Assembly (NCBI GenBank): GCA_039973685.1
Contig: JBDWKL010000028.1
Location: forward strand, 1 to 64,000
Length of the DNA: 64,000 bases
Reading direction: 5' to 3'
DNA from: Hyphomicrobiales bacterium
GTDB taxonomy: Bacteria; Pseudomonadota; Alphaproteobacteria; Rhizobiales; JACESI01
Made by a program: the position numbers and the translations under genes. The notes beneath the pieces are model-generated. The model ran no database searches. It was given only the letters and a program-made list of their open reading frames with translations, and was not told the origin of the DNA. This document shows, piece after piece, positions 33,054-34,317 of this stretch (its first letter is position 1; the number at the start of each line of letters is the position of its first letter).

Positions 33054-33291
33054 GTCTTGTGCCGAAAACTATTCCCTAGGGTTTCTATCACGAGCGTTGT
33101 GCTTAGATGAGTTTATCGAAGTGTAGTACAACCCATCCAGTTTTAATACATGTAGGATGGGTGTTTCCTATCGTCTGTTGATGATGACAGTATTTTGCTT
33201 GCATCTTTAGATGCTCTGCAGGAGAAATATTGAAACATTGGTGAGCGACAATCCGCCGTGATCCATGCGCTCCATGAAAAGAAGAAAATTG

Positions 33292-34317
33292 ATGGCCGAT
33301 AACTTCATCCCCTTACGTGCGACTTATGATGGTATTTCTCCTAGCATCAAAGGCGAACTTGCCAATGCGGGAGAGGGCGCTGTTGTCCTTGGTCGCGTTA
33401 CACTTGGCAACCGCGCATCGCTCGGTGCTTTCGCCGTTTTGCGTGCTGATGGCCATGACGTTGTAATTGGTGATGACTTCCACCTAGGCAGCCACGCAAC
33501 AGTGCACATCGCCCACGATATTTACCCCACGAATATCGGTGACCGAGTAACCTGCGGAAACAATGTTGTCATCCATGCCTGCGATGTGGGGGATGGCTGT
33601 GTGGTTGAACGTGATGCCGTTATTCTCGACGGTGCAAGCGTTGGCGCGGGTGCGGTCATTTCTGCTGGCTCGGTTGTGTTTCCTCGTAGCCAGTTGGAAG
33701 GTGGTTGGCTCTATAGGGGTTGTCCCGCCAAGCCAGTCGCAAAGCTTGCGGCAGCTCAACTGCATGAGTACCACCAGAATATTCGCAACGCAGAACCCAA
33801 CGCTGAGCGTGAGACTATCGAGACAACGACTAAACCAGATTGTTTCGTTGCGCCTTCCGCACTGGTGCAGGGGACTGTTTCAGCTGGGGATGGTGTTGGA
33901 ATATGGTATGGCTGCAAACTTGCTGCACATTCTCATCGCATCTTAATTGGGGCGGGTAGCAATATCCAAGACAACAGCATTCTAACCTGCAACCAAACAG
34001 ATATCGTGCTCGGTCCTGGCGTTACTATCGGCCACAACGTAACGCTATCTGACTGCACGATTGAGCAAGGCAGTTTGATCGGTATCGGTGCGCGTATTTC
34101 CGCTGGCACCGTGGTTGAAAGTGATGTCCTTGTGGCAGCTGGTGCTCATACAGAACAAGGGCAGCGTCTTACATCAGGGAAAGTTTGGGCAGGCCGTCCC
34201 GCACGCGCTATCGCAGATATGGACGCTGGCAAACGCCAGATGATGAGCGAAATATTGGGCCTATACAGAGGCTACGCCGATGACTTCCGCGCAACACCAC
34301 ATGAACCGCTTGTTTGA
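33292..34317 (+). CDS. Tandem gamma-carbonic-anhydrase-like protein (two left-handed beta-helix domains)
   Basis: A 341-aa protein made of two gamma-carbonic-anhydrase-like hexapeptide-repeat domains, residues about 25-152 and 183-308. Each ends in the family closing motif (GGWLYRGCPAKPV; SGKVWAGRPARAI). Single-domain relatives such as YrdA are about 180-200 aa. By alignment to the family, domain 1 keeps the zinc ligands equivalent to His81 (His72) and His122 (His95) but has Asn90 for His117. Domain 2 has Thr232 and Ser253 at the first and third positions but keeps His248 for His117. The start at 33292 is chosen from the conserved N-terminus; in-frame ATGs at 33265 and 33274 are possible. The reaction is unknown. 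Confidence 0.85.
   Translation: MADNFIPLRATYDGISPSIKGELANAGEGAVVLGRVTLGNRASLGAFAVLRADGHDVVIGDDFHLGSHATVHIAHDIYPTNIGDRVTCGNNVVIHACDVGDGCVVERDAVILDGASVGAGAVISAGSVVFPRSQLEGGWLYRGCPAKPVAKLAAAQLHEYHQNIRNAEPNAERETIETTTKPDCFVAPSALVQGTVSAGDGVGIWYGCKLAAHSHRILIGAGSNIQDNSILTCNQTDIVLGPGVTIGHNVTLSDCTIEQGSLIGIGARISAGTVVESDVLVAAGAHTEQGQRLTSGKVWAGRPARAIADMDAGKRQMMSEILGLYRGYADDFRATPHEPLV

Follow-up and report, generated by a model that had tools for sequence, protein, structure and literature searches.

A fused double γ-carbonic-anhydrase-like protein whose two domains conserve complementary halves of a putative composite metal site

A gene in a 64,000-nucleotide stretch of DNA from a Hyphomicrobiales bacterium (hereafter the window) encodes two γ-carbonic-anhydrase-like domains on one chain, and throughout the family of fused homologues each domain keeps one of two complementary sets of the residues that are invariant or nearly so in ordinary γ-carbonic anhydrases (γCAs). 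We consider it probable that the protein is a metalloenzyme of the γCA type, in a single chain and with composite active sites of one kind only. When the reading is judged step by step, the composite site itself appears highly likely, and activity of the fused protein as a carbonic anhydrase is only slightly favoured. The gene and its layout are as follows, in coordinates of the window:

33292-34317, + strand: fused double γCA-like gene, 341 amino acids, supported by the open reading frame and by full-length homologues
33316-33792, + strand: domain 1 (D1), residues ~9-167, a left-handed β-helix (LbH) with C-terminal helix 154-167, from family matches and the model
33793-33813, + strand: residues 168-174, belonging to the D1-D2 linker; in block 171-180 the confidence of the model drops to ~53
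33814-34290, + strand: domain 2 (D2), residues ~175-333, an LbH with C-terminal helix 312-333, from family matches, the model and structure comparison

An in-frame ATG at 33265 is a possible earlier start that would add 9 residues. Both D1 and D2 match γCA families in a PDB sequence search and, as two separate stretches, in NCBIfam. The best PDB match of D2 is a plant complex I γCA (E = 2.6e-30), while D1 is closest to bacterial γCAs. The fused protein lies under the curated cut-off of every named γCA model, which counts against the γCA-type reading; for the NCBIfam gamma carbonic anhydrase model NF050158 it scores 168.6 bits over two stretches, below a 250-bit cut-off that is likewise reached by 0 of 58 genomes of the class. 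The window protein scores 99.9 bits with PaaY (TIGR02287; cut-off 319.6) and 93.6 bits with CaiE (cut-off 305).

In γCAs, two of the metal-binding histidines belong to one subunit and the remaining one to its neighbour (PMC7447434, PMC13261364). Arg45 contacts Asp47 within its own subunit and Asp61 of the neighbouring one (Arg45 of A with Asp61 of B), residues that correspond to Arg59, Asp61 and Asp76* of Cam; a pocket-tyrosine position is supplied by the second chain, and a hydrophobic LIG(M/I) patch is reported as the CO2 pocket (PMC8000050). The window protein distributes these elements over its two domains. D1 carries the following positions, with counts over 94 distinct fused homologues:

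33442-33444, + strand: Arg51, equivalent to Cam Arg59; 94 of 94 in D1, lost in most D2
33448-33450, + strand: Asp53, equivalent to Cam Asp61; 94 of 94 in D1
33505-33507, + strand: His72, equivalent to Cam His81, a metal ligand in γCAs; 94 of 94 in D1 (21 of 21 in the unbiased set described below)
33559-33561, + strand: Asn90, at the position of Cam His117; His in 0 of 94 D1, mostly Arg
33574-33576, + strand: His95, equivalent to Cam His122, a metal ligand in γCAs; 94 of 94 in D1 (again 21 of 21 in the unbiased set)

The corresponding positions of D2 are:

33961-33972, + strand: Asn224, Gln226 and Asp227, equivalent to Cam Asn73, Gln75 and Asp76; 94 of 94 in D2
33985-33987, + strand: Thr232, at the position of Cam His81; His in 11 of 94
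34033-34035, + strand: His248, equivalent to Cam His117, a metal ligand in γCAs; 94 of 94 in D2
34048-34050, + strand: Ser253, at the position of Cam His122; His in 3 of 94
34264-34275, + strand: Tyr325 and Tyr328, spaced like the pocket tyrosines Tyr161 and Tyr164 of PMC8000050 and assigned by that spacing

No single domain of the window protein holds the full trio of metal histidines, and Arg59, Asp61, Asn73, Gln75, Asp76, His81, His117, His122 and the pocket tyrosine are each represented exactly once per chain. The alignment bore out every residue that the original prediction had named (His72, Asn90, His95, Thr232, His248 and Ser253). Across the 94 homologues, D1 has the complete set Arg59, Asp61, His81 and His122 and lacks His117, and D2 has the complete set Asn73, Gln75, Asp76 and His117, without exception; for D1 His81 and His122 this count is biased in L052-L131, because the contig scan that supplied those sequences used D1 motifs containing His72 and His95. 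No D2 residue entered these motifs. The unbiased figure for D1 His72 and His95 comes from whole-protein searches and is 21 of 21. All 21 of the sequences examined first display the complementary pattern, one of them (L014) with extra His in D2. The complementary loss of histidines first noticed in a single protein is thus fixed across the family and spans more than the three histidines, and no random loss of these residues occurred among the 94 sequences.

Ordinary γCAs provide the reference for this split. In 53 of them the three histidines, Arg59, Asp61 and Gln75 are invariant, Asn73 is present in 51, and the Asp76 position holds Asp in 45 and Glu in 8. Of 26 columns conserved to at least 85% in the ordinary enzymes, five are kept in D1 only (P17, R51, D53, H72, H95) and six in D2 only (I217, N224, Q226, H248, G264, Y325), and together these columns would make up one site. 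The Asn73 and Gln75 equivalents are never retained in D1, and that of Asp76 in 10 of 94. Tyr325 is conserved in 98% of ordinary γCAs, in 93 of 94 D2 and in none of the D1 representatives, and Tyr328 occurs in 68 of 94 D2. The hydrophobic LIG(M/I) patch is altered in D1 and retained in D2 as LIGI, with L262 and G264 kept only there. In this CO2-pocket patch D1 has Glu (Glu106, 33607-33609) in 79 of 94 sequences at a position where ordinary γCAs have an invariant Gly.

The published inter-subunit triad Asp61-Arg59-Asp76* divides between D1 and D2 just as the histidines do. Such a placement, with Arg59 and Asp61 on D1 and Asp76, Asn73, Gln75 and Tyr on D2, is what is expected if only the interface between the His81/His122 side of D1 and the His117 side of D2 is functional. 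By alignment, the D1 residues correspond to the first wall of a γCA site and the D2 residues to the second; we infer from the spacing along the β-helix that Asn73, Gln75 and His117 lie on the same wall as Asp76. The proposal of a single kind of metal site at the D1/D2 interface accordingly gains in plausibility from this complementary retention and loss, which includes Arg59 and Asp61 versus Asp76. The split is not strict in every member, and His81 and/or His122 are retained in D2 of 13 of the 94 sequences, which counts against it. Only L014 (genome G076) has all three histidines in D2; its D2 has neither Arg59 nor Asp61, and it is a possible intermediate. In L027 and L030, Arg59 and Asp61 are still present in D2. 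By their sequences, L014 and L027/L030 look like less reduced states.

The predicted structures are consistent with two domains held in a fixed relation. AlphaFold2, run with 20 family sequences, modelled the window protein with a pLDDT of 92.4 and a pTM of 0.91, and a divergent relative with values of 84.2 and 0.87; for two domains of similar size, these pTM values indicate a defined D1/D2 packing. Both domains form an LbH followed by a C-terminal helix in the model and in structure comparison, so that the original prediction of two LbH domains on one chain holds for both halves, in family matches and in models alike. PDB entry 3c8v superposes on both domains of both models (303 and 302 residues, r.m.s.d. 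3.4 Å, Z = 27.9 and 24.9, VIA-align), which means that double-LbH chains with such a domain arrangement occur in nature. On the composite-site reading, this packing would be the one that brings His72 and His95 beside His248. The top inter-domain covariation pair joins residue 10, in the N-terminal strand of D1, to residue 298, in a D2 hairpin, and the pair 10-322 is also among the top 20; the signal is weak, with a Neff of 57 and scores inflated by kinship. According to the literature, the N-terminus of the γCA chain that gives Arg59 lies near the C-terminus of the chain that gives Asp76, and this proximity and the pair 10-298 are weak hints that the packing is the site-forming one. No covariation was seen between positions 90 and 67 and positions 211, 213 and 232, where a compensating contact between the D2 and D1 walls was sought. 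A pairing of the D1 N-terminus with the D2 C-terminus, suggested by DSSP strands 8-10 and 337-339, was discarded, as strand 8-10 recurs in the second model but 337-339 does not.

In the mechanism that we propose, one wall of the site would come from D1, through the metal histidines His72 and His95 and the Arg51-Asp53 pair. D2 would build the other wall from His248, from Asn224, Gln226 and Asp227, from the tyrosines 325 and 328 and from its hydrophobic LIGI patch. At a D1/D2 interface resembling the subunit interface of a γCA trimer, these walls would meet around a single metal ion, Zn(II) or Fe(II), and a metal-bound hydroxide would carry out the chemistry, presumably CO2 hydration. The glutamate that serves as proton shuttle in Cam is absent from the fused protein, as it is in CamH-type γCAs, and this counts against carbonic anhydrase activity. 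Some CamH-type γCAs are inactive.

Between a site within one chain and a site between chains, we tentatively favour the former. γCAs are trimers, and chains of two domains cannot fill a trimer in such a way that all its interfaces are alike, which counts against the composite-site reading. The site might instead pair D1 and D2 domains of different polypeptides, or the trimer might be completed by an LbH domain that a further chain contributes, an arrangement that we regard as possible though not the favoured one. It is in line with the literature view that γCA rings require three domains and with a D1-D2 linker that is long and poorly predicted, and the published contact of one N-terminus with the next C-terminus does not alone force a cis arrangement; against it, the monomer models already fix the D1/D2 packing at the pTM values given above, and the covariation pairs 10-298 and 10-322, weak as they are at this Neff, join the two domains. 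That the protein is a degenerate, metal-free structural remnant that drifted after duplication is very improbable: each domain alone does lack ligands needed for a site, but eight complementary residues would not survive drift in 94 of 94 sequences while the reciprocal positions vary, and in several genomes the fused gene is the only γCA-like gene. Least probable of all is a hexapeptide acyltransferase that merely resembles a carbonic anhydrase. Such enzymes have the LbH fold in common with the protein, and an early annotation read 'carbonic anhydrase/acetyltransferase', but the nearest families are γCAs and the conserved residues are γCA metal and pocket residues.

Among 397 genomes of the order, whole-genome protein searches found full-length fused homologues in 15, the window's genome being one of them. 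More divergent ones occur in the class, and four homologues lie on plasmids. The contig scan yielded 80 loci, all encoding proteins of fused length, from Rhodobacteraceae, Hyphomicrobiales, Methylobacterium, Burkholderiales and others, and the homologues span many alpha- and betaproteobacteria; no relative was present in the viral contigs searched. The nearest relatives come from Silicimonas and Lutimaribacter, at 66% across 340 residues. In FastTree and in a 67-row IQ-TREE analysis, the D1s form one clade and the D2s another. FastTree placed D1 and D2 apart, which suggests a fusion of two unlike γCAs, but a constrained D1+D2 clade is not rejected (p-AU 0.739) and has the higher likelihood; duplication is therefore a candidate origin. 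One duplication and fusion followed by reciprocal loss is the simplest account compatible with the data. The duplicated, fused gene of the original description is compatible with the D1+D2 clade, its duplication being a possible origin.

At 29 of the 80 loci, a gene more than 60% identical to the large subunit of 2-hydroxyisobutyryl-CoA mutase lies within the fetched flank. The two genes are neighbours at L034, L035, L036, L039, L052-L054, L056, L059-L071 and others, and the fused γCA often accompanies these mutase genes, an association that seems to have gone unremarked. In Xanthobacter Py2, Methylibium PM1 and Agrobacterium, the cluster comprises genes for a GntR regulator, a B12-binding subunit, a CoA ligase, a MeaB-like G-protein, the mutase large subunit and a cobalamin adenosyltransferase. 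The published mutase operon consists of hcl, hcmAB, meaH and a GntR gene, with no carbonic anhydrase mentioned (PMC7176365), and none of the papers searched deals with a fused γCA or with a carbonic anhydrase in this operon. In Methylibium PM1 (L035:8217-10996), a thiamine-dependent lyase gene and the fused γCA gene overlap by 4 bp, which suggests translational coupling. The order lyase-γCA recurs in the Burkholderiales loci L062, L081 and L083. Locus L045 (genome G227) has partial ligase and MeaB homologues, an intact fused γCA and adenosyltransferase, and no mutase large subunit in the stretch; it looks like a decaying mutase operon.

Other loci are arranged differently. In Methylobacterium the fused gene stands apart from the mutase operon, and in L037, L048 and other loci of this genus it adjoins a moaE-like (molybdopterin synthase) gene, as judged by eye. 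In the window, too, the gene is on its own, oriented divergently to a sensor kinase/regulator pair and to a TAXI-TRAP transporter, and the window's genome (G000) has no 2-hydroxyisobutyryl-CoA mutase (best match 42%) and no ordinary γCA. Three genomes of the same genus (G001-G003) show the reverse, with an ordinary γCA and no fused gene, a pattern suggestive of replacement following horizontal transfer. An ordinary γCA is absent from 13 of 20 genomes with the fused gene, compared with 12 of 43 good-quality genomes of the class (Fisher p = 0.007, uncorrected for kinship). The fused protein may thus substitute for the ordinary enzyme.

These neighbourhoods bear on a further explanation, in which the composite site is real and the enzyme is a CoA-thioester hydrolase resembling PaaY that would clear CoA esters of the 2-hydroxyisobutyrate pathway, such as 2-hydroxyisobutyryl-CoA or formyl-CoA. 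The mutase gene at 29 of 80 loci and the lyase overlap in Methylibium speak for it, as does PaaY itself, a γCA relative that is described as a thioesterase in phenylacetate catabolism (PMC13261364); one report also attributes γCA activity to PaaY (PMC467105). We nevertheless find a hydrolase unlikely, as all pocket residues are those of ordinary γCAs and the PaaY model scores far under its cut-off. The window's genome and the Methylobacterium loci have no mutase operon nearby, and a role in the mutase pathway therefore cannot be the only one. For the γCA-type enzyme with a composite site, we lean slightly towards a broader reading: a widespread and hitherto unnoticed γCA class with one polypeptide and one intact, obligately heterotypic site, in which the second wall of each domain has been freed from catalysis. 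Members of this class would have joined the 2-hydroxyisobutyryl-CoA mutase operon by recruitment and, in other places, would replace the ordinary γCA.

The original prediction regarded the arrangement as not described. No paper on a fused γCA was found in the literature searched, but two related cases are known: the γCA trimer of plant complex I with its one site (PMC7447434, PMC7567890) and 3c8v, a solved double-LbH chain. 3c8v, a 'putative acetyltransferase' of Desulfovibrio desulfuricans G20, has two LbH domains on one chain in the same mutual arrangement; it is only 15-17% identical, and our literature search found no paper on its function. PaaY and CaiE are γCA-like proteins encoded in CoA-ester catabolic operons too, but unlike the fused protein they are single-domain.

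γCA sites normally lie between identical subunits. The ordinary CamH/YrdA-type enzymes share with the fused protein the fold, the C-terminal helix, the metal histidines, the residues Arg59, Asp61, Asn73, Gln75 and Asp76 and the pocket tyrosine. Each of their chains, however, has a single domain, and their homotrimers have three equal sites, where the fused protein has two domains with half a site each. Natural complementary half-sites on a single chain would offer a clean system for studying the loss of symmetry in interface enzymes and the number of sites needed per trimer, and the gene adds a conserved, unassigned member to a biotechnologically interesting pathway, that by which 2-hydroxyisobutyrate and fuel oxygenates are degraded. 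The nearest known principle, by analogy, is the mitochondrial complex I heterotrimer of plants (γCA1/γCA2/γCAL), in which one zinc site is intact and the partners have lost complementary ligands (PMC7447434, PMC7567890). There, three separate chains are bound to complex I, whereas the fused protein is a single bacterial chain, outside the plant class with its separate γCA and γCAL subunits, and its split also covers Arg59/Asp61 versus Asn73/Gln75/Asp76/Tyr. The fused protein may thus bear on what the silent plant subunits have undergone, and it is itself well explained as a γCA variant with a conserved composite site rather than as a new kind of enzyme.
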